Part shown: one piece after another, positions 25,700-54,758 of the stretch
How positions within the stretch are numbered: the stretch's first letter is position 1
Layout of the letters: each line of letters starts with the position of its first letter
Assembly (NCBI RefSeq): GCF_900142065.1
Contig: NZ_FSRJ01000001.1
Span: 248,001-312,000 of the forward strand
Reading direction: 5' to 3'
Length of the DNA: 64,000 nt
Origin: Agromyces cerinus subsp. cerinus
GTDB taxonomy: Bacteria > Actinomycetota > Actinomycetes > Actinomycetales > Microbacteriaceae
Notes under the pieces: generated by a model
Databases searched by the model: none
What the model saw: only the letters and a program-made list of their open reading frames with translations
What the model was told of the DNA's origin: nothing
Position numbers and translations under genes: made by a program

Positions 25700-26206
25700 G
25701 TGATTGAGACGAACACCGCACCCCTCGTCGGCGTCGTGATGGGTTCCGACTCCGACTGGAACGTGATGCGCGAGGCATCCGCACTGCTCGACGAGTTCGG
25801 CGTCGCGCACGAGGTCGAGGTCGTCTCAGCGCATCGCACGCCCGAGAAGATGATCGCCTACGGCAAGGAGGCGGCTGGGCGCGGCCTCAAGGTCATCATC
25901 GCCGGCGCCGGCGGCGCCGCGCACCTGCCCGGCATGCTCGCCTCGGTCACGACGCTGCCCGTGGTCGGCGTGCCCGTTCCGCTGTCGCGACTCGACGGAC
26001 TCGACTCGCTGCTCTCGATCGTGCAGATGCCCGGCGGCATCCCGGTGGCGACCATGGCCATCGGCGGCGCCAAGAACGCCGGTCTCTTCGCGGTGCGTGT
26101 GCTCGCAGCATCCGACCCTTCCCTCGCCGACGCGCTCGGCACGTACGCGACCGACCTCGCCGCACTCGTCGAGGAGAAGAACGAACGGCTCAAGCAGAAC
26201 CGATGA
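25700..26206 (+). CDS. purE: 5-(carboxyamino)imidazole ribonucleotide mutase
   Basis: 168 residues of the class I PurE family: [14 protein letters not shown] near residue 9 binds the phosphate and carries the conserved [15 protein letters not shown] near 44 holds the catalytic histidine and [11 protein letters not shown] near 74 is the third conserved loop. It converts N5-CAIR to CAIR. The GTG start is chosen because it places the first strand at residue 9 and follows a -10 hexamer. Its stop overlaps the LCP gene as ATGA. Confidence 0.94.
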
Positions 26207-27573
26207 CGCTCGCCGCAAGCCCGATCCGCTATCCGGACGCCGCCTCGCGCACGGTCATGACCCGCCGCGCGTGGTGGCTCGTCGTGCTCAACTTCCTGAT
26301 CCCGGGTGCCCCGCAGGTGCTCGCAGGCAGTCGAAAGCTCGGGCGGTTCGGCTTGGGAGCGACGCTCGTGCTGTGGACCTTGGCGATCCTGGCCCTCGTG
26401 GTCTGGCTCCTCTGGCCTGCGACGCTCTACACGGTCTTCTCGATGTCGATCACGCTCTGGATCGTCGCGCTGGTGCTCGCCTTCTACGCGGTGCTCTGGG
26501 TGATCCTGACCCTCGACACGCTGCGGCTCGTGCGCCTCGTGAAGACGGCTCCCTCCGCCCGGGTGTGGGTCGCCGGCCTCACCACCCTCGTCATGGTCGG
26601 GGTCTCGGGTGCGGCGGCCTACGGCGCCTACTTCGCCACGACCACGAGCGGTTTCATCTCGTCGGTGTTCGCCGCCGGCCCGAGCCAGCCGCCGGTCGAC
26701 GGCCGCTACAACATCCTGCTGCTCGGCGGCGATTCCGGCCCCGACCGCGAGGGCATGCGGCCCGACAGCATGACCGTCGTCTCGATCGACGCCGAGACCG
26801 GGCAGGCGGTCACGATCGGCCTGCCGCGCGACCTCGAGTACGTGCCGTTCCCCGAGGACTCGCCGCTCGCGGCCGTCTACCCCGAGGGCTACGGCGCGAT
26901 CGACGGCTGCGAGGTCGACGTCTGCCAGCTCAACTCGATCTACACCGAGGTGGAGCTGAAGAGCCCCGAGATGTACCCGGACGCCGTCGCCGAAGGCAGT
27001 GAGCCCGGCATCGAGGGGGTCAGGGATGCCGCAGAGGGCATCACCGGCCTCGAGATCCAGTACTACGCGCTCATCGACATGCAGGGATTCCAGCAGCTCA
27101 TCGACGCGCTCGGCGGAGTCGACATCAACGTCGACACCCGCATCCCGATCGGCGGCGACGAGGACAACGAGGGCGTCGACGGATGGATCGAGCCCGGCCA
27201 GCAGCACCTCGACGGCTACCACGCGCTCTGGTACGGCCGCGCACGCTACGGCACGGCCGGCGGCGACTACGAGCGGATGGCACGCCAGCGCGTGCTGCAG
27301 GAGGCGGTGCTGCACCAGTTCACGCCGACGAACGTGCTCGCCAAGTTCCAGGAGGTCGCGTCGGCGGGAGCGGACACCGTGAAGACCGACATCCCGCAGT
27401 CGATGCTCGGCTACTTCGTGAACCTCTCCATGAAGACGAAGGAGCTGCCGATCACCTCGGTCGAGCTCGTGCCGGCGAACGGCGTCGACCCCACCGATCC
27501 CGACTGGGACTACATCCGGTCGCTCATCGACGGCGCCCTGGCGCCGGCGACCGAAGCGCCGACAGAGGAGTGA
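26203..27573 (+). CDS. LytR-CpsA-Psr (LCP) family glycopolymer ligase
   Basis: 456 residues. Three or four hydrophobic helices (about 24-145) lead to an extracellular LCP domain: [10 protein letters not shown] near 171, [27 protein letters not shown] near 185-212 with the Asp and Arg residues that bind the polyprenyl pyrophosphate, [22 protein letters not shown] near 287 and [22 protein letters not shown] near 345. LCP enzymes transfer glycopolymers from lipid carriers to peptidoglycan. It overlaps purE by four bases (ATGA), yet its role suits the polysaccharide locus downstream. An internal ATG at 26257 (MTRRAWW) is an alternative start. The multi-helix N-terminus is longer than the single anchor of classic LCP proteins. 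Confidence 0.9.
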
Positions 27574-30826: not shown

Positions 30827-32824
30827 TCACTCGGCGTCGTCGAACTCGTAGACGTGCACGGGGGTGTCCTTCCACTGGATCACGTCGCGCTCGACGAGAC
30901 AGCCCTGGGGCAGTTCGTCGCGCGACATCACCGTCGTCAGCTCGGGGTAGGACTCGCGCAGGCTGCACGGGTTCGCGGTGATCGTGATGACGTTGTAGTT
31001 CGTCGCCTCGACCTCGACGCCCGGCTCCTCGGTCCAGACGATCCGGATCCGGCTGCCACCGCGATTCCAGGCCTCCTCTGCCGCGCCGGAGGGATCGAGC
31101 CGCTCCCATTGCTCCGCTCGCGGACCTGACGGCTGCGGCCCCGAGAGCGAGGGCAATCCGTTGGCGAGCATGATCGCGTCCATGGCCCGGAAGTCGCTGG
31201 CCCAGACCTCGCCCGCCGCACGGACGTCGTCGGCCGCAGCGGCGAAATAGCGCGCCGGATCCGAATCCCGGTATCCGCCGAGCCCGACCGTGATCGGATT
31301 CACGGTTGCGGTCGACCCGGCGGCGAGGAGTGCGACGATCGCGATCGCCCAGACCTTGTCGCCCCATCGGACCATGAGGAAGGCGGCCGCACCCGACAGG
31401 ATGCCGGCGATCCAGACCGCGGCCGTCGACATGTCGGGAATGATGAACCGTTGCAGGAGGGAACCCGCGTACAGACCGATCGCGGCCACCACCACCGCGA
31501 TGCCGGCCGCGCGCGCCGTGCTCGTGCGTATGCGGGAGAGCATCAGGCACAGCACCAGCACGCCGATGATGCCGACGACCTGCGCGGCACGCTGCGACGG
31601 CATCTGGCTGAAGATCGGAAGCCGGGCGCTCGCGTCACCGAATGCCAGCGAGGCCCATGCGAGCCACACCAGGCCCCAGCCGAGGAGGACGCCGACCGGC
31701 AGCCAGAGCCGCCATTCGCGCTTCACGAGGCGCACCAATGCTCCGGTGACGAGCAGCGCGACCATGACGAACGCGACCGTCCACGATGCGGCGAGTTCGC
31801 TCTTGTTGGTCATCCCGCCGAACGAGGTCAGTTCACCGCGATCGACCGCGAGCGCCGACGGAGCCCCGAACAGCATCTCGAAGATGGTCGGGGCCGAGGG
31901 GAGCCGGCGGTCACCCGGGTAGAGCGTGTTGCCCATCGCGACGAGGCCATCGCGGACATCGGCCAGCATGCCGATCATCAGGACGACGGTGAGCAGACCG
32001 ACTCCGACGAGATAGCCCCATCGGATCCTCGGCCGGGCCTCGCGGTCGAGGAGGATGCGCAGGGCGCTCACGATGAGGAGCGGGACACCGAGCAGGAGCG
32101 ACCAGAGCAGGTAGGCCGAAGGGATTCCCGCGAGCAGGATGGCCGCGACGATGCCGAACGGCAGGGCGCGCCAGATCCGTCCGGCAGCGATTCGCCGGTA
32201 CCCGGCCAGGAGGGCGACGCACCCCGCGAGCGTGAATCCCATGACGTTGACGGGCTGCAGCGACCACCACGCGACCGCGGGCGAGGCCGCGATGAGGAGG
32301 CCGGCGAGCCACCCGAGTCTGCTGTTGAATCCGAGCTGCCGGAACCAGATCGGCATGCACGCCAGGAACAGGATCGTCGGCAGCCACCAGTGGAGGCTGA
32401 ACAGGATCGCGTCGGGGATGATCCCCGCGAGACGGAGGATCGTCCCATCGAAGAAGACGAGGGCGCCGACGGGGCCGCCCTCGCTGTAGCGCATGGCGAG
32501 CCCGGCCTGCTCCGCGAGGGGCGGGAACGACGGCAACCCATTGGTCGACATGATCGACAGGAACGTCGGCGTGCCGCCGAGGTACTCGTCCCAGCGGATC
32601 TCCTGAGCGTTGCCGGCCAGGATTCCGTCGCGACCGCCCGTTGTCTGCTGCAGGTAGTCCTGAGTGAGGTTGGACGTGGTCGTGCCGGTGAGGACGAGCG
32701 CCGCGAAGACCGCGAACAGCAGGACGTGCGCCCAACGATCGTTCACGCTCAGCCACACCACCGCGCGCGTCGACCACTTCCGGAACGTGCTGCGAGTGGC
32801 GCCGGTCCGCGACGATTCAGTCAT
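30827..32824 (-). CDS. Large multi-pass membrane protein of the rml operon, function unknown
   Basis: 665 residues. About 13 hydrophobic helices extend from residue 30 to 510, followed by a soluble extracytoplasmic C-terminal domain of about 150 residues containing ARYFAAAADD, FRAMDAIMLANGLPSLSG and a cysteine pair (NPCSLRESYP, QGCLVERD). After helix 1 there is a long loop with GNAQEIRWDEYLGGTP. The layout resembles GT-C glycosyltransferases or other membrane proteins that handle lipid-linked sugars, but no catalytic signature was recognised with certainty. It lies three bases after rmlCD and is the last gene of the rmlA-rmlB-rmlCD operon, so use of rhamnosyl lipids is a reasonable guess. Confidence 0.7.
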   Translation of the reverse strand: MTESSRTGATRSTFRKWSTRAVVWLSVNDRWAHVLLFAVFAALVLTGTTTSNLTQDYLQQTTGGRDGILAGNAQEIRWDEYLGGTPTFLSIMSTNGLPSFPPLAEQAGLAMRYSEGGPVGALVFFDGTILRLAGIIPDAILFSLHWWLPTILFLACMPIWFRQLGFNSRLGWLAGLLIAASPAVAWWSLQPVNVMGFTLAGCVALLAGYRRIAAGRIWRALPFGIVAAILLAGIPSAYLLWSLLLGVPLLIVSALRILLDREARPRIRWGYLVGVGLLTVVLMIGMLADVRDGLVAMGNTLYPGDRRLPSAPTIFEMLFGAPSALAVDRGELTSFGGMTNKSELAASWTVAFVMVALLVTGALVRLVKREWRLWLPVGVLLGWGLVWLAWASLAFGDASARLPIFSQMPSQRAAQVVGIIGVLVLCLMLSRIRTSTARAAGIAVVVAAIGLYAGSLLQRFIIPDMSTAAVWIAGILSGAAAFLMVRWGDKVWAIAIVALLAAGSTATVNPITVGLGGYRDSDPARYFAAAADDVRAAGEVWASDFRAMDAIMLANGLPSLSGPQPSGPRAEQWERLDPSGAAEEAWNRGGSRIRIVWTEEPGVEVEATNYNVITITANPCSLRESYPELTTVMSRDELPQGCLVERDVIQWKDTPVHVYEFDDAE

Positions 32825-32827
32825 CCG

Positions 32828-34242
32828 CTACTGCTCCGCGGTCAGATAGTTCGTCAGTGAGTCCACCATCGGCGTGGTCGTGAAACCCGTGTCCTCGAGC
32901 TTCGCGAGCTCGAGGACGCTGTTTCGAGGTCTCGGAGCGACCAGAGCCGTCGTGTCGCGGAAGTAGTCGTCGGTCGACACCGACGAGACGCGCGCAGGAT
33001 CGTGGCCCGTGAGCGAGAAGACTCGTCGGGCGATATCCGCCCACGACATCGGTTCGCCGGAACCCGAGAGGTTGTACACGCCGTACGCGGGCCGGGTCTC
33101 GAGGAGATGGCGGATGCCTCGGGCGAGGTCGTCGGTGAACGTGAGCCGGCCGATCTGATCGGAGACGACCTTCGGGTCGATGCCGCGGTCGGCGAGCGAT
33201 GCCATCGTCGAGACGAAGTTCTTGCCCTCGCCGATGACCCACGACGTGCGGACGACGTAGTGGCCCGGCACTGTCGAGACGATCGCGTCGCCGGCGGCCT
33301 TCGTCTGCCCGTAGACGCCGAGCGGGGAGAACGGGTCGCTCTCGCGATAGGGGCGCTCGAGTGTGCCGTCGAACACGTAGTCGCTCGAGACGTGCACGAG
33401 CGTGATTCGGTGAGCGGTTGCGACACGCGCAAGCGCCGCGACGCCCGCCACGTTGGCGGCCCATGCGTCGCGTCGCCCTTCGGGGGTCTCTGCGAGGTCG
33501 ACGGCGGTGTAGGCGGCAGCGTTGACGATGGCGGCGTAGTCGCCCCACCGGCGTGCGCCGTCGAGTTCCGGCGACGTGAGATCGAGCTCGGCTCGTCCGG
33601 CGAACTCGACGCGGTCGGACCCGCCGAACTCGGCGCGCAACGCCGTGCCGAGCTGGCCACCTGCGCCGACGACGAGGATCTTCTTCGGCGGCACCGGCGT
33701 CACCTCCGCCAGACGGGGGTGTGCGAGATCCTTCTCCGACACCTCCGCGTCCGAGAGCGCGATGGGCCAGGGCACGTCGGCGGTCTCGTCGGCGAGATTG
33801 AGGAAGGTGTACTGCGCGTCGGGCGACCAGTGGTCGTTGACGAGGTAGGTGTACGCGGTGTCGGGTTCGAGCGTCTGGTAGGCGTTGCCGACGCCCCGCG
33901 GAACGAAGATCGCGCGAGACGGATCGAGCTCGGTCGTGAAGACGGCACCGAACGTCGGCCCCTCGCGCAGGTCGACCCACGCGCCGAAGATGCGTCCGGT
34001 GGCGATCGAGACCCACTTGTCCCACGGCTCGGCGTGGATGCCGCGAGTCGTGCCGACGGCGTCGTTGAACGAGATGTTGTTCTGCACCGGGCCGAAGTCC
34101 TCGAGCCCGAGTGCGGTCATCTTCGCGCGCTGCCAGTTCTCTTTGAACCAACCGCGGTTGTCCCCGTGCACCGGGAGTTCCCAGACGACGAGACCGGGAA
34201 TCGGCGTCTCGATGGTGCGGAGCTGCTTGCCGAACTCTGCCA

Positions 34243-34243
<1 letters not shown>
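32828..34243 (-). CDS. rmlCD: Fused dTDP-4-dehydrorhamnose 3,5-epimerase / dTDP-4-dehydrorhamnose reductase
   Basis: 471 residues. Residues 1-195 are an RmlC cupin-type epimerase (GWFKENWQ, NNISFNDAVGTTRGIHAEPWDKW, FVPRGVGNAYQTLEPDTAYTY). Residues 200-471 are an RmlD reductase with ILVVGAGGQLGTAL, SSDYVFDG, PLGVYGQTKAAGD (YxxxK) and VVRTSWVIGEGKNFV. Together they turn dTDP-4-keto-6-deoxyglucose into dTDP-L-rhamnose. The GTG start overlaps the rmlB stop by one base (TAGTG). The RmlC/RmlD fusion is known in actinobacteria related to Microbacteriaceae and Micrococcales. The RmlC histidine of the usual RGxHxQ is kept, though the neighbourhood reads GIHAEP. Confidence 0.92.
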
Positions 34244-36110
<1,867 letters not shown>

Positions 36111-38156: not shown

Positions 38157-39398
38157 ATGACGTCTCCGACTGAGGGGCGCTCGCGCGGGCTCGTCTACAT
38201 CCTGGCGGCCACCGCGATCGCGGGCGGGTTCGGCTACCTCATCCAACTCGCGGCGCCGGCGTTCCTCGGCGACGCCGAGACGTACCTCGCGTTCACGGTG
38301 TTCTGGTCGACGCTCTATCTCTTCATCGCGGCGGTCGGAGGTGTGCAGCAGGAGGTGACTCGTGCGACGCAGCCCACCGACGTGCCGCCGCAGAGTACGA
38401 CGCTCCGTGACTTCACCCTCCTCGCCTCGGCTGCCCTGGTCGTGGTCGCGATCGTCGTCGGGCTGCTCCTGAGCCAAGTGGCCTTCGCCGCCGCGCCCGT
38501 TGCGATGACGGTCTCCTTCGCCATCGGGCTGATCGGATACCTCCTCACCGCGTCACTGGCCGGAGTCTTCTACGGGCTGTCTCTGTGGCGTCCCATCGCC
38601 ATCCTCACCGTCGTCGACGCGACGTTGCGCGGGGTGGCCGTCGGGCTGGGGTTGCTGTTCGGGGCTGAGCCGGGCCTGCTCGCCTTCCTCGTCGCAGCGC
38701 CCTTCGGCCTCGCCTTCGCCATCGTCTGGATCGGCTATCGCGCGGCAGTGGTCGGCCGGTTCCGCCTCGACGTGCCGGCCCGTCGCCTGAGCCTGAACAC
38801 CCTCGGAACGGTCACCGCCGCCGCTGCGACCGGAATCATGGTGACCGGACTGCCGCTGCTCCTGCGCTCGCTGATCCCGACGTTCCCCGCCGAGACGCTC
38901 GCGGGACTCGTGCTGGTGATCACGGTCACCCGAGCGCCGCTGATCATCCCGCTCATGGCGCTGCAGAGCTTCCTCATCGTCGACTTCCGTGATGCAGGGC
39001 GACGAGTGTGGCCTCGGTTGGTCCGATACGGCGCTCTCACCGCGCTGGTCACCGCCGTGCTCGCCGTCGGCGCCTGGCTGTGGGGGCCGTGGGTCGTCGA
39101 CATCCTCTCCGGGGGGCGGTACGACGTCGATCCGGGCGTCGCTGCTGCCGTGATGGCGAGCGCCGGCCTCGTGGCGCTCCTCTGCCTGACCGGCCCTGCG
39201 CTCCTGAGCGAGGGGCGACACGTGCCGTATCTGGCCGGATGGGTCGCAGCGGCATCCGTCACGGTCGGTGCGTTGCTCGTGCCGATCGACCCGGTGGCCC
39301 GGACGATCATCGCCCTGATCGCCGCGCCGATCGTCGGTCTCGTGATCCATTCGCTCGGCGTCAGGCCGCGTGAAGTCGTCTCGCATCCAGTCAGCTAG
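38157..39398 (+). CDS. Wzx-like polysaccharide flippase / MOP-superfamily membrane protein
   Basis: 413 residues with about 12 hydrophobic helices and short loops. The start ([41 protein letters not shown]) looks like the beginning of MOP/Wzx transporters, and [22 protein letters not shown] resembles the middle of that fold. The likely role is moving lipid-linked glycan units across the membrane. It precedes gmd, with a 55-base gap. Sequence identity in this superfamily is low, so the assignment rests on topology and context. Confidence 0.7.
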
Positions 39399-39453: not shown

Positions 39454-40482
39454 ATGACCACTCCCGCCCCGATCAAGCGCGCGCTCATCACCGGTATCAC
39501 CGGTCAGGACGGCAGCTACCTCGCTGAACTCCTCCTCTCGAAGGGGTACGAGGTCCACGGACTCATCCGTCGCTCGTCGTCGTTCAACACCGCGCGGATC
39601 GATCACATCTACCAGCCTGCGCAGGCCGACGACCACCGTCTGTTCCTGCACTTCGCAGACCTCTCCGACGGCTCGCGCCTCGTGACCCTCCTCAACGAGA
39701 TCCAGCCGCACGAGGTCTACAACCTCGCTGCGCAGTCGCACGTGCGCGTCTCGTTCGACGAGCCGGAGTACACCGGAGACGTCACGGGCCTCGGCACCAT
39801 CCGCCTCCTCGAGGCCATCCGCGCAGCGCACATCGACTGCCGCTTCTACCAGGCGTCGAGTTCCGAGATGTTCGGTGCCACGCCGCCGCCGCAGAACGAG
39901 GAGACCCCGTTCTACCCGCGCTCGCCCTACGGCGTCGCGAAGGTGTACTCCTACTGGATCACGCGCAACTACCGCGAGGCATACGGACTGTTCGCGGTGA
40001 ACGGCATCCTCTTCAACCACGAGTCGCCGCGCCGTGGTGGCACGTTCGTGACGCGGAAGATCACGCGCGCCGTCGCCCGTATCAAGGCCGGTCTCCAGTC
40101 CGAGCTCTACCTCGGAAACCTCGACGCCGTTCGCGACTGGGGCTACGCGCCGGAGTACGTCGAGGGCATGTGGCGGATGCTGCAGCACGACGAGCCCACC
40201 GACTACGTCCTGGCGACGAACACCGCCTACACGGTGCGCGACTTCCTGCAGTTCTCGTTCGAGCACGCGGGCCTCGACTGGGAGAAGTACGTCCGATTCG
40301 ACGACCGTTACCTGCGCCCGACCGAGGTCGACGCGCTCGTCGGCGACTTCGGCCGCGCCCAGAGCCTGCTCGGCTGGGAGCCGAAGGTGCTCACCCCTCG
40401 TCTCGCTCAGATCATGGTCGACGCCGATGTGGCGGCACTCGACGTCGAGGGTCGCCACTACGTCGACCAGGTGCAGAGCTGA
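39454..40482 (+). CDS. gmd: GDP-mannose 4,6-dehydratase
   Basis: 342 residues. NADP-binding [15 protein letters not shown] near residue 12, [18 protein letters not shown] near 36, the characteristic [14 protein letters not shown] near 96, [16 protein letters not shown] near 133 with the catalytic residues, [12 protein letters not shown] near 154 (YxxxK) and [19 protein letters not shown] near 186. It makes GDP-4-keto-6-deoxy-D-mannose, the shared precursor for GDP-fucose, GDP-rhamnose and GDP-3,6-dideoxyhexoses. An AGGAGA site precedes the ATG. It leads an operon with the Fcl/ColC-like and ColD-like genes. Confidence 0.95.
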
Positions 40483-40488
40483 CGCCGC

Positions 40489-41427
40489 GTGCGCGTTCTG
40501 CTCACGGGCGGGGGAGGGATGCTCGCGACGAGCATCGCCGACGCGTGGTCGACGCAGCGTCCCGATGACGAGTTGGTCGTCGTGTCCCGCCGAGACGTCG
40601 ATCTCACGGACGCGGCGGCAACCCGGCGCGTGATCGGCGACGCTCGCCCCGAGCTCGTCATCCACACCGCGGCATCCGTCGGTGGGATCGCCGACAAGAC
40701 TGCCCGCCCGCTGCCGTACCTGCTGAACAACGTCATCATCGACGCCTCGGTGATCGAGGCGGTCGTCGCGGCCGACGTCCCCCGCTACCTGTACACGGCG
40801 AGTGCCGCAGCGTATCCGGCGGACGCCGTCAACCCGATCTCCGAGTCGGCGCTGTTCGGGGGTCCGCTGGAGCAGGCGAACGAAGGCTACGGTCTCGCGA
40901 AGCTCACCGGGATCACCGCCGTCCGGTACGCCGCGCGGCAGACCGGGCGCGCCTATCGCTCGATCCTTCCGTCGAACCTGTACGGGCCGGGCGATTCGTT
41001 CGACCCCACGCGCTCGCACCTGATCGCGTCGACGCTGCTCAAGACGCATGCGGCCCGTGAAGCGGGCAGCGATCACGTCGAGGTGTGGGGCGACGGCACG
41101 GCCCGACGCGAGTTCACCTTCGCTCCCGACATCGCACGCTGGATCGCGGCGAGCATCGACTCCATCGCGGAGTGGCCCGACATCATGAACGTCGGCGCCG
41201 GCACCGATCACAGCATCCGCGAGTACTACGAGCTCGCCGCTGACGTCGTCGGGTTCGGGGGCGAGCTGAAGTTCGACCCCGAGAAGCCGAGCGGGGTGCC
41301 GCGACGACTCATCGACTCGAGCCGCGCGCGCGCCCACGGATGGGCCCCCCAGACCGCGATCCGCGACGGAATGGCCGAGTGCTACCGCGCCTTCCTCACC
41401 CGTTCCCCGATTGGAGATCCTCGATGA
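40489..41427 (+). CDS. GDP-L-fucose synthase / GDP-L-colitose synthase-like epimerase-reductase
   Basis: 312 residues of the Fcl/WcaG family: LLTGGGGMLATSIADAW at the start, HTAASVGGIADK near 59, TASAAAYP near 103 (Ser105), EGYGLAKLTG near 132 (Tyr134, Lys138), SNLYGPGDSFDPTRSHLI near 164 and GDGTARREFTFAPDIA near 202. Fcl enzymes epimerise C3 and C5 and reduce C4 of GDP-4-keto-6-deoxymannose. ColC proteins belong to the same family but work on the 3-deoxy intermediate. Because a ColD-type gene follows with an ATGA overlap, a ColC role, or a reductase making another 3,6-dideoxyhexose, is as likely as fucose synthesis. Confidence 0.85.
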   Translation: MRVLLTGGGGMLATSIADAWSTQRPDDELVVVSRRDVDLTDAAATRRVIGDARPELVIHTAASVGGIADKTARPLPYLLNNVIIDASVIEAVVAADVPRYLYTASAAAYPADAVNPISESALFGGPLEQANEGYGLAKLTGITAVRYAARQTGRAYRSILPSNLYGPGDSFDPTRSHLIASTLLKTHAAREAGSDHVEVWGDGTARREFTFAPDIARWIAASIDSIAEWPDIMNVGAGTDHSIREYYELAADVVGFGGELKFDPEKPSGVPRRLIDSSRARAHGWAPQTAIRDGMAECYRAFLTRSPIGDPR

Positions 41428-42608
41428 CCCCGACGCCCGCCTACCCGCTTGCGACGACGACCTGGGACGACGGGGAGTACGCCGCGCTCCAGCGCGTCAT
41501 CGAGAGCGGTCGATTCACGATGGGCCCGCTGGTCAAGCAGTTCGAGGCCGAGTTCGCCGCCCACTTCGGTGCGAAGTTCGGCGTCATGGTCAACTCCGGG
41601 AGCTCGGCCAACCTCATCGCGATCGCAGCCGCGGTGCTCGACCCGAGGATCGACCTGCAGCGTGGTGACGAGGTGCTCGTCCCCGCGGTGTCCTGGCCCA
41701 CGACCTACTATCCGCTGTCCCAGTACGGGCTCCGTCCGAAGTTCGTCGACATCGACCTCGACACGCTGAACATCGACCTCGACCTCCTCGAAGCGTCCAT
41801 CGGCCCGCGCACCAAGGGCATCTTCGCCGTCAACCTGCTCGGCAACCCGAACGACTTCACTCGCCTGCGGAGCATCGCCGACACGCATGGACTCGTCCTC
41901 CTCGAGGACAACTGCGAGTCGCTCGGCGCCGTGTCCGACGGCATCAACGCGGGCACCGCGGGCCTCGCAGGCACGTTCAGCTCCTTCTTCTCGCACCACA
42001 TCTCGACGATGGAGGGCGGCGTCATCGTGACCGACGACGAGCAGCTCTACCAGGAGATGATCTCGTTGCGTTCGCACGGCTGGACTCGCGACCTTCCGGT
42101 CGAGAACCACGTGCACGACAAGACGGGCAATGCGTGGGACGACCTGTTCCGCTTCGTACTGCCCGGCTACAACGTGCGCCCGCTCGAGATGTCGGGCGCG
42201 CTGGGCCTCGAGCAGTTGAAGAAGGTTCCGGCACTCGTCGAGGGGCGTCGTGAGAACGCGGCGTACTTCGCCGAACGGTTCGCGGGCATCGAAGAGGTGC
42301 GCACGCAGCGCGAGACCGGGCAGAGCAGCTGGTTCGGCTTCTCGATGGTGCTCGAGGGCGGGCTGGCCGGTCGCCGGGCCGAGGTCGTCCGGGCATTCGA
42401 GCAGGCCGGAATCGAATCACGTCCGATCGTCGCGGGCAACTTCGCACGGAACCCCGTGGTCGCCCACCTCGACGCGGTGATCCCCGACGCTCTGCCGGCC
42501 GCCGACAAGGTCGACGTCGATGGGCTGTTCGTGGGCAACCACCACTACCCTGTTCGCGAAGGCATCGACCTCGTGGCCGAGACGATCGAGCGCGTCGCGG
42601 TCAGCTGA
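41424..42608 (+). CDS. PLP-dependent GDP-4-keto-6-deoxymannose 3-dehydratase, ColD-like
   Basis: 394 residues of the DegT/DnrJ/EryC1/StrS fold. NSGSSANLIA near 57 binds the cofactor phosphate, LEDNCESLGA near 160 has the pyridine-nitrogen aspartate and SFFSHHISTMEGG near 187-199 is the key region. Where sugar aminotransferases have the Schiff-base lysine, this protein has His191. A histidine at that position (His188 in E. coli ColD) is known to turn the fold into a 3-dehydratase that uses glutamate and removes the C3 hydroxyl. With gmd and an Fcl/ColC-like gene directly upstream, the expected product is GDP-4-keto-3,6-dideoxymannose. RfbH-type enzymes acting on CDP-sugars also carry histidine, but no CDP-glucose genes are present here. 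Confidence 0.85.
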   Translation: MTPTPAYPLATTTWDDGEYAALQRVIESGRFTMGPLVKQFEAEFAAHFGAKFGVMVNSGSSANLIAIAAAVLDPRIDLQRGDEVLVPAVSWPTTYYPLSQYGLRPKFVDIDLDTLNIDLDLLEASIGPRTKGIFAVNLLGNPNDFTRLRSIADTHGLVLLEDNCESLGAVSDGINAGTAGLAGTFSSFFSHHISTMEGGVIVTDDEQLYQEMISLRSHGWTRDLPVENHVHDKTGNAWDDLFRFVLPGYNVRPLEMSGALGLEQLKKVPALVEGRRENAAYFAERFAGIEEVRTQRETGQSSWFGFSMVLEGGLAGRRAEVVRAFEQAGIESRPIVAGNFARNPVVAHLDAVIPDALPAADKVDVDGLFVGNHHYPVREGIDLVAETIERVAVS

Positions 42609-42691: not shown

Positions 42692-43798
42692 TCAACGCCG
42701 TTGGCCGGCCGCCAGCGCCTTCTCGAAGCTCTCGAGCGTGCCGCGAGCGGTGCGCTCCCAGGAGAACATCCGCGCGCGCTCTCGACCGCGTTCGGAAAGC
42801 CCTGCGAGCAGGTCTGGGCGAGTGGCCGCGGTGCGCATCGCCGCGGCGATGGAGTCGAGGTCGGTCGGATCGATGAAGAGCGCGGCATCGCCCACGACTT
42901 CACGATAGACGGGGATGTCGCTGATCATGACGGGCAGCCCCGCCATCATGGCTTCGAGCGCAGGCAGCGAGAATCCGTCCGCGAAGGAGGGCATCGCGAG
43001 GATGGTGGCCCGGGAGTAGAGGTCCCGCATCTCGTCGTCGTCGACCCATGACTTGAGTTCCACCCAGTCCTGCATGCCGGTCTCGTCGACGACCGCCTTC
43101 AGCGGATCGTCGCCGTGGCTGCCGGTGACGACGAGATGCGGGCGCTCCTCGACCGGAATCAGCGGCAATGCGCGGATCAGCGACGGCCAGTTCTTGTGCG
43201 GGCGGCGGTTGCCCGTCGCGAGCACCATCGGATGAGGCTGCGAGGCGAGACTGCGGTCGGCACCGGGTACCTTGGTGCCCGCGAGGGGGACGAGGTCGAC
43301 TCGATCTTCGGGGACACCCAGATACCGGAAGATCGCCTGGCGCGACTCCTCGCTGATCGTGAGGATGCGAGCCGCGTTCCGCGACGCGACCTTCTCCATC
43401 CATTTGACCGGTTCGGTGTACAGCGGCGTCGACATGTACTCGGGGTGGCTCCAGTAGAGCATGTCGTGCATCGTCATGACCGTCGGCACCGTCGTCTTCA
43501 TCGGCCCGAGCGTGGCCGGGCAGTGCACGAGGTCGACCTGATGGGCGCGCGCGGCCCGCGACACCTCGAACAGCTCACCACGGGCCCACGCGAAGCGATT
43601 TTCGCCGCTGATACCCGAGTCCACCGTCTCGCCGGGGAACCAGGACCGATCGAGCTGATAGCCCTCGCGGCTCATGAAGCCGATGAACTCCCACTCCGGC
43701 GCGATCAGGGGGAGCTGACGGTACAGCTCCCGGGCATAGATCTCCATGCCCCCTTTGGTGCCTGTGTAGGACAGAAGATCGACGAGGACGCGAGGCAT
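42692..43798 (-). CDS. Glycosyltransferase family 4 (mannosyltransferase-like)
   Basis: 368 residues, GT-B fold. It opens VLVDLLSYTGTKGGMEIYARELYRQLP, then VDLVHCPATLGP near 90, TVMTMHDMLYWSHPEYM near 108, LATGNRRPHKNWPSLIRALP near 193 and MPSFADGFSLPALEAMMAGLPVMISDIPVYREV near 271 with the Glu-rich sugar-nucleotide site. The PHKN and F-SLPALEAM blocks resemble WbdA/MtfB-type mannosyltransferases that use GDP-sugars, which would suit the nearby GDP-sugar genes. The ATG at 43798 is chosen because the family start MPRVLVDLLSY follows; the open frame continues upstream without similarity. Confidence 0.86.
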   Translation of the reverse strand: MPRVLVDLLSYTGTKGGMEIYARELYRQLPLIAPEWEFIGFMSREGYQLDRSWFPGETVDSGISGENRFAWARGELFEVSRAARAHQVDLVHCPATLGPMKTTVPTVMTMHDMLYWSHPEYMSTPLYTEPVKWMEKVASRNAARILTISEESRQAIFRYLGVPEDRVDLVPLAGTKVPGADRSLASQPHPMVLATGNRRPHKNWPSLIRALPLIPVEERPHLVVTGSHGDDPLKAVVDETGMQDWVELKSWVDDDEMRDLYSRATILAMPSFADGFSLPALEAMMAGLPVMISDIPVYREVVGDAALFIDPTDLDSIAAAMRTAATRPDLLAGLSERGRERARMFSWERTARGTLESFEKALAAGQRR

Positions 43799-47752: not shown

Positions 47753-48649
47753 ATGACCCTCGACATCATGATGCCGTTCTATGGTCGAATCGACCACTTC
47801 AAGCTCGCGGTCGAGAGTGTGCTCGCCCAGACCGACGACGACTGGCGTCTGACGATCGTGGACGACGTCTACCCCGACCTCAGCGCGGGCGAATGGGCGA
47901 AGTCGATCGATGACCCGCGTGTGACCTACATCCGCAACGAGGTCAACCTGCGGCCGAGCCGGAACTACCGCAAGTGCGTCACGCTCATGCAGCATCCGTT
48001 CGCGGTGATCATGGGATGCGACGACCTGATGCTGCCCGGGTATGTCGCGCGGGTGCAGGAGCTCACGACGCGCTTCCCCGATGCCGCAGTCATCCAGCCC
48101 GGGGTCGAGGTCGTCGATTCCGACGGCGGGGTGCATCGTCCGCTCGCCGATCGCGTGAAGGCGCTGTACGCGCCGCGGGGCACCGGCGTTCGCACGCTCG
48201 CCGGTGAAGAGATGGCGCGGAGCCTGCTCCGTGCCAACTGGACCTACTTCCCCTCGCTCGCTTGGAACGTGGCTCGACTGCGTCGTCACGAGTTCCGCCT
48301 CGACCTCGACGTGGTGCAGGATCTCGCCATGCTCCTCGAACTCGCGAAGGATGACGGCACCCTGGTCGTCGACGACGAGGTCGTGTTCCGGTATCGTCGC
48401 CACGCCGAGAGCGTGTCTGCCGTCACCGCCCCCGACGGCTCCAAGTTCGCCCAGGAACGGGTCGTCTTCGGTGAGGCCGCGCGGGACATGGAGGCACTCG
48501 GTTGGCAGCAGGCTGCACGTGCGGCCAAGCTCCACCTGACGTCGCGGCTGCACTCGGCCGCAGACCTCCCGAAGGCCGTGGTGGCGCGCGATGCCGCCGG
48601 GTTCCGGAGCCTCGCGCGTCACACCTTCGGTGGTCTCGGCGTCAGCTGA
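47753..48649 (+). CDS. Glycosyltransferase family 2
   Basis: 298 residues. It opens LDIMMPFYGRIDHFKLAVESVLAQTDDDW, then TIVDDVYPDLSAGEW near 35, a NEVNLRPSRNYRKCV stretch near 61 and AVIMGCDDLMLPGYV near 84 with the metal-binding aspartates. The catalytic segment LDLDVVQDLAML lies near 182. It is a soluble cytoplasmic transferase of unknown sugar. It stands alone on the plus strand and ends three bases from the stop of the convergent GlfT2-like gene. Confidence 0.83.
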   Translation: MTLDIMMPFYGRIDHFKLAVESVLAQTDDDWRLTIVDDVYPDLSAGEWAKSIDDPRVTYIRNEVNLRPSRNYRKCVTLMQHPFAVIMGCDDLMLPGYVARVQELTTRFPDAAVIQPGVEVVDSDGGVHRPLADRVKALYAPRGTGVRTLAGEEMARSLLRANWTYFPSLAWNVARLRRHEFRLDLDVVQDLAMLLELAKDDGTLVVDDEVVFRYRRHAESVSAVTAPDGSKFAQERVVFGEAARDMEALGWQQAARAAKLHLTSRLHSAADLPKAVVARDAAGFRSLARHTFGGLGVS

Positions 48650-48652
48650 GTC

Positions 48653-50554
48653 TCAGCGCTCGTCGAGGCCGAGCGACCGCGACCAGGTCTCGGCCGAGGT
48701 GATCGAGCCGAGACCGGCTCGATACTGCGTTGCGAGCGTGTGCCACTGTCTGCGCGATCGAAGGTTCAGTCGCAGCGAATCCCGGAGGTACCGCCGGAAC
48801 AGCTTGGGATCGCGGACGTGCCACGTGACTCCCGAACCCTCGGCGTTGCTGATGAGCACGCTGTCGTGGTTCGGCACCTCGAACCACCGCGCGTCCTGAT
48901 ACGGCAGGTGCGCGGCAGGGCGCACTCCCGCGTCCGCTGCGGGTCGGCTGAAGGCATGGCGCCACGCCGTTCGCAGCGACCAGGTGAGGAGCCGGGGACC
49001 GCGGGGTCGGGGGTCGGCGCGTCCGGGTGTCGCCTCGACGGCGCGAGCAGGCAGGAGCGGCAGTCGGCTGGTGTCGCGGATGAGCGTGGATTCGCGGAAG
49101 TCCGCCCCGAGCGCGCGCACCCGCGGCAACCGGTCGACCATGTCGGTGTGCAGCTGGGCCGGCCCCTCGAACACGTTGCGCATCGCGGCATGGCGCATCG
49201 CGACGGTGTAGTAGTCCATGGTGAAGAGGTTCTTCACATCGAGGGCGAAGTTCTCACGCCACAGCTTCCCGCCGTTGCGCGCCGGCGAGTGGAGCAGCGC
49301 CGCGACGAGGCGGTTGCGCGCATGGAAGAAGGCCTGCCAGTCATGGGAGTCGTCCTTGTCGACCCATGAGACGTGCCACACGGCGGCACCGGGAAGGCTC
49401 ACGGTCGCGTACCCGTGCTCCCTGGCGCGCAGGGAGTACTCCGCGTCATCCCACTTGATGAAGACCGGGATCGACAACCCGATCTCCTTGATGATCGACA
49501 CGGGGATCAGTGACATCCACCAGCCGTTGTAGTCGACGTCGAAGCGGCGGTGCAGCCACGGCGTCTGACGCAGGTTCGACTCCGCGAGGTCGTGGCGGGA
49601 GGGCGTGAGCGAGCCCCAGTCGAACGTCTGGGGCTCGACGCCCTCGGCGAAGGCGTGGAGCTTCGACTTGTCGTACATGTCGAACATGTGCCCGCCGACG
49701 ATGGTCGGCGATGTGCAGTGATTGGCGAAGACGATGGCGCGTCGCAGGCTCTCCGGTTCGATCTCGACATCGTCGTCGAGCAGGATCACGTAGTCGGAGT
49801 CGCCGGCCTCGACGGTCTCGAGCATGCCGCGCGAGAACCCGCCGGAGCCGCCGAGGTTCGCCTGCTCGATGACGCGGAGGCGATCGCCGAGCCGTTCGAC
49901 GGCGAGCCCGTAGCCGGGGTTCTCGACGATCCGCTCGCTGCCCTGGTCGACGACCTGCACCCGGTCGATGAAGGCCATGGCGTCGTCGTCACCGCCGATC
50001 TCGGCGAGGAGCTTCGTGCAGTAGTCGCCGCGGTTGAGCGTCGTGATCGAGACCGTCGCCGTTCCGTCGGCATCCACCGATTCGCCGTCGAGGGCGAGCC
50101 AGTCGGCCTGCACGACCGACAACGGGCGATCAGCGGCGATGAGGTCGAACCAGAGCCATCCGCCGTCGAGGTACGAGTTGAAGGGAAGTTCGAACTCCGT
50201 CGTCGCCGTTCCGTCGACCTCGACGCCGTCGAGGCGCTGGATCACGCCTCGTGCGTTCGAGCGGAAGACGATGATCCGCCCGGCGCCCTCGGTCTCGATG
50301 CGCAGCCGCGTACCCGTGAGCGTCGTCCAACGGGCCCAGTAGCTGGCCGGGAACGCATTGAAGTACGCGGCGAGCGACACCGACTCGAATGCCGGGAGCT
50401 CGACGCCGCGTCGCCCCCGGAGCCACGCGAGCCCGCTGTGCGAGGACTTCCTGGTCCCGGTGCCCGACGCGGTGTCGAGGTAGAGAGGAAGGGCCTGCGG
50501 GTCTCCGTGCTCGGGGAAGATCACGCGCTGCAGCACGACGGGGTGCGGAGTCAT
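48653..50554 (-). CDS. Galactofuranosyltransferase GlfT2-like (GT2)
   Basis: 633 residues, as long as mycobacterial GlfT2. An N-terminal beta-sandwich (about 1-150, with LYLDTASGTGT and FNAFPASYWARWT) precedes the GT-A domain: TVSITTLNRGDYCTKLL near 165, VQVVDQGSERI near 200, QANLGGSGGFSRGMLE near 233, YVILLDDDVEIEPESL near 257 with the DDD site and VFIKWDDAEYSLRAREHG near 365 with the catalytic Asp-Asp-Ala-Glu. A helical C-terminal domain follows. GlfT2 polymerises UDP-galactofuranose on a lipid-linked acceptor. The glf gene is directly upstream on the same strand, which supplies the donor. The inner ATG at 50554 is preferred over 50602. Confidence 0.88.
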   Translation of the reverse strand: MTPHPVVLQRVIFPEHGDPQALPLYLDTASGTGTRKSSHSGLAWLRGRRGVELPAFESVSLAAYFNAFPASYWARWTTLTGTRLRIETEGAGRIIVFRSNARGVIQRLDGVEVDGTATTEFELPFNSYLDGGWLWFDLIAADRPLSVVQADWLALDGESVDADGTATVSITTLNRGDYCTKLLAEIGGDDDAMAFIDRVQVVDQGSERIVENPGYGLAVERLGDRLRVIEQANLGGSGGFSRGMLETVEAGDSDYVILLDDDVEIEPESLRRAIVFANHCTSPTIVGGHMFDMYDKSKLHAFAEGVEPQTFDWGSLTPSRHDLAESNLRQTPWLHRRFDVDYNGWWMSLIPVSIIKEIGLSIPVFIKWDDAEYSLRAREHGYATVSLPGAAVWHVSWVDKDDSHDWQAFFHARNRLVAALLHSPARNGGKLWRENFALDVKNLFTMDYYTVAMRHAAMRNVFEGPAQLHTDMVDRLPRVRALGADFRESTLIRDTSRLPLLPARAVEATPGRADPRPRGPRLLTWSLRTAWRHAFSRPAADAGVRPAAHLPYQDARWFEVPNHDSVLISNAEGSGVTWHVRDPKLFRRYLRDSLRLNLRSRRQWHTLATQYRAGLGSITSAETWSRSLGLDER

Positions 50555-50605
50555 GGAATCCTTAGTGCTCTCGGTGGGCGGGCTCGCCGAGCGACGAGCC
50601 ATGGG

Positions 50606-54758
<4,153 letters not shown>

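Follow-up and report, generated by a model that had tools for sequence, protein, structure and literature searches.

A 64,000-nucleotide stretch of Agromyces cerinus subsp. cerinus DNA (contig NZ_FSRJ01000001.1, positions 248,001 to 312,000; the whole stretch is here called the window, and belongs to a genome of 4.19 Mb) contains, at positions 39454 to 42608, a three-gene operon whose product is very probably a rare wall sugar derived from a mannose-type precursor. The genes encode a GDP-mannose 4,6-dehydratase (Gmd), a reductase of the family of GDP-L-fucose synthase (Fcl) and colitose synthase (ColC), and a 3-dehydratase of the ColD type. The product that we favour, at a probability of roughly 60%, is GDP-D-tyvelose (GDP-3,6-dideoxy-D-arabino-hexose) destined for a wall polysaccharide. 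The gene identities, the operon, a histidine in place of the usual lysine in the dehydratase and a clade-wide conserved loss of the epimerase cysteine of the reductase (Cys109 of Fcl) are all read directly from the sequence.

The operon and its active sites

The three open reading frames run in the same direction and form a tight operon, with a gap of 6 nucleotides followed by a 4-nucleotide ATGA overlap, in keeping with the first-pass annotation of the window, which described gmd, an Fcl/ColC-like gene and a StrS-fold gene as overlapping or nearly touching. Folds were assigned from sequence identity.

39454..40482, plus strand: gmd, GDP-mannose 4,6-dehydratase, 342 residues; passes the model TIGR01472 with 502 bits (cut-off 415); PF16363 456 bits; best PDB match 1n7g
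40489..41427, plus strand: C4-reductase of the Fcl/ColC family that lacks the epimerase cysteine and is predicted to be a GDP-tyvelose synthase, 312 residues, GTG start 6 nucleotides past gmd
40807..40809, plus strand: codon of Ala107 (the Fcl Cys109 position), from the gap-free alignment of SAAAYP with SSCIYP
41424..42608, plus strand: ColD-type GDP-4-keto-6-deoxymannose 3-dehydratase, 394 residues; 450 bits to Escherichia coli ColD (2gms), PF01041 264 bits
41994..41996, plus strand: codon of His191 (His188 of ColD, the pyridoxal phosphate (PLP) lysine of aminotransferases), from the alignment to ColD and its Asn and Lys mutants

By every sequence test applied, the dehydratase is of the ColD kind. 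It scores 450 bits to E. coli ColD against 179 to the CDP-sugar 3-dehydrase E1 and 136 to perosamine synthetase. The segment SFFSHHISTMEGG is present, His191 being the first histidine of the pair and the catalytic one, and in the PDB alignments this residue aligns with His188 of E. coli ColD. Two E. coli ColD sequences in the PDB depart from the wild type at precisely this residue, u41217 having Asn and u35396 having Lys, and the crystallised ColD mutants are H188N and H188K. The earlier claims that His191 stands where aminotransferases keep the PLP lysine, and that the enzyme is of the ColD type and not an aminotransferase, are upheld by these comparisons. Members of PF01041 are mostly aminotransferases, and an aminotransferase with a shifted lysine was considered and rejected, since no lysine lies within 40 residues of His191 (the nearest are residues 131 and 233) and ColD is far the best match. 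A four-cysteine iron-sulphur motif marks E1 and SpnQ and separates them from ColD; the Agromyces protein holds one cysteine in all, at position 164, which rules out an iron-sulphur enzyme of the E1 type. The motif SHHI(S/A)TMEGG was found in all 94 rows of the ColD tree.

The best PDB matches of the reductase are GDP-fucose synthases (208 bits), and its score against NF047922 (GDP-L-fucose synthase), 267 bits, is under the curated cut-off of 500. With GDP-L-fucose synthase it shares the fold family, the catalytic triad (Ser105, Tyr134 and Lys138, equal to Ser107, Tyr136 and Lys140 of Fcl) and His179, but it lacks Cys109: in a gap-free alignment SSCIYP of Fcl corresponds to SAAAYP, and the sole cysteine of the Agromyces protein is residue 298. 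Position 132 is likewise alanine. Epimerisation by Fcl uses Cys109 as base and His179 as acid, whereas the reduction is the work of Ser107, Tyr136 and Lys140 (PMC7949155). The same gene content, with gmd, a ColD with the histidine pair and an adjacent Fcl-family gene, is found in the GDP-L-colitose pathway, known among others from E. coli O55 and Yersinia; the E. coli O55 genes for ColC and ColD overlap by 4 nucleotides, as their counterparts do in Agromyces. ColC of E. coli O55 differs in keeping Cys109, Thr132 and His179. The Cys/His dyad that defines colitose synthase is Ala/His in Agromyces, and for this reason we do not class the pathway with those for colitose. The annotated Fcl/ColC-like epimerase-reductase thus keeps its family, being an Fcl-family protein encoded beside colD, but its epimerase role is not supported. 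The genome holds one Fcl homologue above 28% identity.

Distribution and history of residue 109

ColD was found in 22 of 299 genomes of the family at an E threshold of 1e-60, the partner reductase having Ala in 16, Val in one and Cys in four, and being cut by a contig end in one. Across the phylum (396 genomes scanned), matches at 1e-80 were confined to the window and two other genomes, of 50 and 45% identity. The set of gmd, Fcl-like and ColD-like genes co-occurs in many further genomes; the ColD loci from named genomes are the best 80 of 585, and so sample the close relatives without amounting to a census. Several of the family members are identical in sequence to named loci of Plantibacter, Cryobacterium and Pseudolysinimonas. 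Of the 104 loci examined, 103 had a partner scoring more than 250 bits, that of locus L043 scoring 159 bits. Two truncated and ten duplicate sequences were dropped to leave 91, and with E. coli ColC the set comprised 92 distinct full-length partners. Residue 109 is Cys in 56 of them (E. coli O55 ColC included), Ala or Val in 27 and Thr in nine. The Ala/Val partners are all from Actinomycetota, where 42 partners divide into 26 Ala, one Val and 15 Cys; the 50 others have Cys in 41 and Thr in nine. Residue 132 co-varies, being Thr or Ser in all 56 Cys partners and Ala or Pro in all 36 others. Besides Gram-negatives with O-antigen, ColD-type operons occur in archaea, Actinomycetota, Bdellovibrionota and a cyanobacterium, so that the earlier description of colitose as known mainly from Gram-negative O-antigens was too narrow.

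On the reductase tree (93 rows, the 92 partners and E. coli Fcl, motif columns excluded; a quick tree with support from the Shimodaira-Hasegawa-like approximate likelihood ratio test, SH-aLRT, only) two changes account for residue 109, giving an Ala/Val clade of 27 (SH-aLRT 99) and a Thr clade of nine (SH-aLRT 100). The Agromyces reductase is sister to four Microbacterium sequences (SH-aLRT 99). Among 60 Agromyces genomes four have ColD, and the three besides A. cerinus retain Cys; two predicted products would thus occur within one genus. One genome of the genus (G720) matches Agromyces mediolanus over the 400-base stretch compared; A. mediolanus and Cryobacterium have the Cys type, while Plantibacter flavus, Microbacterium oxydans and Pseudolysinimonas have the Ala type. 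That the operon is closer to those of Microbacterium than to those of its congeners suggests transfer between genera.

As a control, an Fcl homologue was found at 1e-40 in 88 of the 299 family genomes, and 48 of the 69 matches from genomes lacking ColD were examined. Cys is present in 46 of the 48 and Ala in two (L147 and L148), both of which fall within the Ala clade (29 rows, SH-aLRT 99) and stand beside gmd and ABC transporter genes; one of the two contigs additionally encodes a Cys-type Fcl. Their place inside the clade indicates that the loss of Cys belongs to the lineage and is not random decay. The ratio of non-synonymous to synonymous substitution (dN/dS) was 0.065-0.223 in seven pairs within the Ala clade, with dS above 1 in three of the pairs, indicating that the reductase is under purifying selection.

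The Thr clade is labelled Poseidoniales or Poseidoniaceae in three cases, Euryarchaeota or euryarchaeote in five and as a metagenome-assembled genome (MAG) of Rhodobiaceae in one; a Poseidoniales locus outside the clade (L094) retains Cys. All nine (L079, L080, L082, L083, L084, L087, L095, L096 and L105) keep His179 and so have the same Thr/His pair as DdahC of Campylobacter, and no gmd scoring at least 150 bits was found at their loci. This clade is an independent candidate for a non-epimerised GDP-dideoxyhexose. The reductase of the Rhodobiaceae-labelled contig (L105) lies inside the archaeal clade, perhaps through a binning error. The ColD partner of a Litoreibacter MAG (L102) stands apart from every other partner and clusters with true Fcl. 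Arthrobacter sp. Bz4 (L055) has a ColD 71% identical to that of Agromyces, yet a Cys-type partner, which makes an exchange of partner genes possible, in line with the ColD tree discussed below.

The predicted product and its alternatives

For the reactions we infer the following course. Gmd would convert GDP-D-mannose to GDP-4-keto-6-deoxy-D-mannose. With pyridoxamine phosphate and His191, the ColD-type enzyme would then take away the hydroxyl group at C3, leaving GDP-4-keto-3,6-dideoxy-D-mannose, whose C4 the Fcl-family enzyme would reduce directly with NADPH and without inverting C5. In Fischer projection the C4 hydroxyl would stand to the right as with Fcl and ColC, C2 to the left as in mannose and C5 to the right, which is the D-arabino configuration of tyvelose. 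With Ala in place of Cys109 the inversion of C5 is not expected, and this favours GDP-D-tyvelose over GDP-L-colitose. The first-pass annotation had offered GDP-colitose, or GDP-tyvelose if C5 was not epimerised; the second part of that proposal is favoured here, and colitose as the first product is not.

Reductases of this kind are known from Campylobacter, where DdahC (Thr/His) and MlghC (Tyr/Arg) are relatives of Fcl without epimerase activity and the DdahC pathway gives D-altro, the C4 outcome of Fcl (PMC7949155). Retention of His179 in Agromyces, as in DdahC, would favour the same C4 face. The GDP-3,6-dideoxy-heptose enzymes of Campylobacter jejuni likewise comprise a PLP 3-dehydratase followed by an Fcl-family C4-reductase, and the reductase of HS:53 in vitro converts the unepimerised 3,6-dideoxy-4-keto heptose to D-arabino, the heptose analogue of GDP-tyvelose (PMC10440746). 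They differ from the Agromyces operon in their heptose substrates and in the separate cupin C5-epimerase of the natural HS:5 and HS:11 pathways, and the D-arabino product came from mixed enzymes of different serotypes (PMC10440746). In Fcl with Ser for Cys the product was mainly C3-epimerised and C5-unepimerised (PMC12362431).

The same predicted sugar, tyvelose, is made in Salmonella and Yersinia by a CDP-linked pathway of CDP-glucose 4,6-dehydratase, E1/E3, CDP-paratose synthase and CDP-tyvelose 2-epimerase (as generally described, partly after PMC8987622). The Agromyces route, in contrast, would be GDP-linked with a ColD-type dehydratase without iron-sulphur, and since it would start from mannose it would need no C2 epimerase. 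The earlier remark that no CDP-glucose route is present in the window is supported, in that neither of the two models tried reaches its cut-off anywhere in the genome, TIGR02622 (CDP-glucose 4,6-dehydratase; best 76 bits, cut-off 278) and TIGR02623 (glucose-1-phosphate cytidylyltransferase; best 42 bits, cut-off 300), E3 and the CDP-tyvelose 2-epimerase not being searched for separately. GDP-tyvelose was not found named in the literature search, which is no proof of its absence from print, as most taxonomic papers were outside the search. In an earlier survey L-colitose was widely assigned on genomic grounds, and the parts of it drawn on here do not mention residue 109 (PMC7725333).

Several observations weigh against GDP-D-tyvelose. 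The C4 outcome varies among Fcl-family reductases, that of Campylobacter HS:3 giving D-lyxo (PMC10440746). Human GDP-L-fucose synthase with the change C116A was without detectable activity in a fucose synthase assay (PMC12362431), so that the single change alone does not make a good reductase. On the ColD tree the Ala/Val label takes two changes, or perhaps one; Ala/Val is not one branch there, and reductase and dehydratase have thus not always moved together. No ColD was found beside two members of the Ala clade, both genomes being incomplete (82 and 88%). The candidate GT4 transferase gene described below is present in two of the four Cys genomes too. The literature search, again with most taxonomic papers outside it, found no confirmation of tyvelose in such walls, nor any paper that joins tyvelose, cell walls and Microbacteriaceae in support of the earlier remark that tyvelose is reported from walls of that family; the papers that combine it with cell walls and actinobacteria are, by their titles, about other matters.

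The alternative that survives best, though unlikely, is that the enzyme only reduces C4, and from the other face, with GDP-3,6-dideoxy-D-lyxo-hexose as product. The HS:3 reductase makes its D-lyxo heptose from the same substrate type (PMC10440746), but His179 is kept in Agromyces, and DdahC, which has His, serves the D-altro pathway, while MlghC, with Arg at this position, serves the L-gluco pathway of opposite C4 (PMC7949155); residue 179 may therefore be linked to the C4 face.

GDP-L-colitose after all, with C5 epimerised by another base of the reductase or by a separate enzyme (for example an RmlC domain) before reduction, comes next and is likewise improbable. The operon has the gene content of a colitose pathway, the ColD-like and Fcl-like enzymes of Campylobacter HS:5 are accompanied by a C5-epimerase that is a cupin protein of its own (PMC10440746), and some 5 kb upstream of the operon there is a coding region for an RmlC domain. 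However, Cys109 is replaced across the whole Ala/Val clade, together with residue 132, and the upstream domain, which belongs to the sole PF00908 protein of the genome, is fused to RmlD and stands beside rmlA and rmlB, so that it is better explained by rhamnose. A homologue of the fusion was found at three of 25 Ala/Val loci, so that an epimerase of this kind does not accompany the operon, the search having been limited to this family.

A still fainter prospect is GDP-D-rhamnose, in addition or instead, with the product of Gmd reduced ahead of ColD or in its absence. It is favoured by two Ala-clade relatives that adjoin gmd without ColD, beside ABC transporter genes, but in Agromyces ColD overlaps the reductase and its active site is intact, and the two genomes concerned are the incomplete ones. 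On both contigs (L196:2956-5030 and L197:958-2906, minus strand) gmd and the Ala-type Fcl relative stand beside an ABC transporter ATPase gene, a predicted GDP-D-rhamnose module whose reductases may have lost ColD. An aminotransferase making an amino sugar such as GDP-perosamine, suggested by membership in PF01041, can practically be dismissed, since His replaces the lysine and the score to perosamine synthetase is 136 bits where that to ColD is 450.

If GDP-D-tyvelose is the product, there are two unrelated ways of making tyvelose, one through CDP and one through GDP, and a sugar best known from Salmonella O-antigens is present in the wall polysaccharides of Gram-positive bacteria from soil and plants. 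A wider proposal, to which we give even odds, is that this GDP-linked, CDP-independent route originated in the loss of the epimerase cysteine from a colitose synthase of Actinomycetota, that a second loss, from Cys to Thr in the mainly archaeal clade, independently gave the same or a sister sugar, and that one residue then tells from a genome, even within Agromyces, whether the D- or the L-dideoxyhexose is made. A single active-site column would in that case separate makers of L-colitose from makers of D-tyvelose, close relatives and even congeners carrying both versions of the reductase would form a natural test set, and annotation pipelines will misname such operons as colitose or fucose pathways. 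The change from bifunctional epimerase-reductase to plain reductase would also illustrate enzyme evolution cleanly, and Campylobacter offers a known parallel.

Transferase candidates and the surrounding locus

The gene set around the operon looks like that of a wall polysaccharide locus, with the rml genes on the minus strand upstream and glycosyltransferases around them.

42692..43798, minus strand: GT4 glycosyltransferase (PF00534/PF13692), best candidate dideoxyhexosyl transferase
47753..48649, plus strand: GT2 glycosyltransferase (PF00535), second and less specific candidate
38157..39398, plus strand: 413-residue membrane protein, exporter-like by eye only; homologue in 20 of 25 Ala/Val and three of 14 Cys actinobacterial loci
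32828..34372, minus strand: RmlC-RmlD fusion, assigned to dTDP-L-rhamnose; PF00908 (the single match in the genome to this RmlC-type cupin epimerase family) and PF04321 within one reading frame, NCBIfam rmlC and rmlD models below cut-off
34243..35454, minus strand: rmlB, dTDP-glucose 4,6-dehydratase (TIGR01181 463 bits, cut-off 365)
35238..36110, minus strand: rmlA, glucose-1-phosphate thymidylyltransferase (TIGR01207 466 bits, cut-off 361)
30827-32824, minus strand: 665-residue protein with DUF7657 and DUF7654, among glycosyltransferases
26203-27573: LytR-CpsA-Psr ligase
48653-50602, minus strand: GlfT2-type galactofuranosyltransferase
50606-52117, minus strand: UDP-galactopyranose mutase

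The GT4 enzyme, whose gene adjoins the operon, probably transfers the dideoxyhexose. Its homologue was found in all 17 Ala/Val genomes of the family, two of the four Cys genomes, the one genome with the partner cut by a contig end and 10 of the 277 genomes lacking ColD, an association with a Fisher p of about 5e-21 when relatedness is ignored. The corresponding figures for GT2 were 17/17, 1/4, 0/1 and 48/277. At the loci themselves GT4 was present in 22 of 25 Ala/Val and four of 14 actinobacterial Cys loci and GT2 in 22 of 25 and none of 14, in a comparison of loci of unequal length whose two groups differ in distance from the Agromyces window. A Plantibacter locus (L077), counted outside the 25 Ala/Val loci and among the non-actinobacterial ones, has matches of 66% to GT4 and 67% to GT2, the only ones in that group. 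Two genomes (G224 and G266) carry the GT4 gene in two copies each, one per pair about 2-3 kb from the reductase.

The 413-residue membrane protein gave no match in Pfam or NCBIfam, and the protein with DUF7657 and DUF7654 had no homologue in any other locus compared. The pair of GlfT2-type transferase and UDP-galactopyranose mutase suggests a galactofuranose-containing polymer in the same locus.

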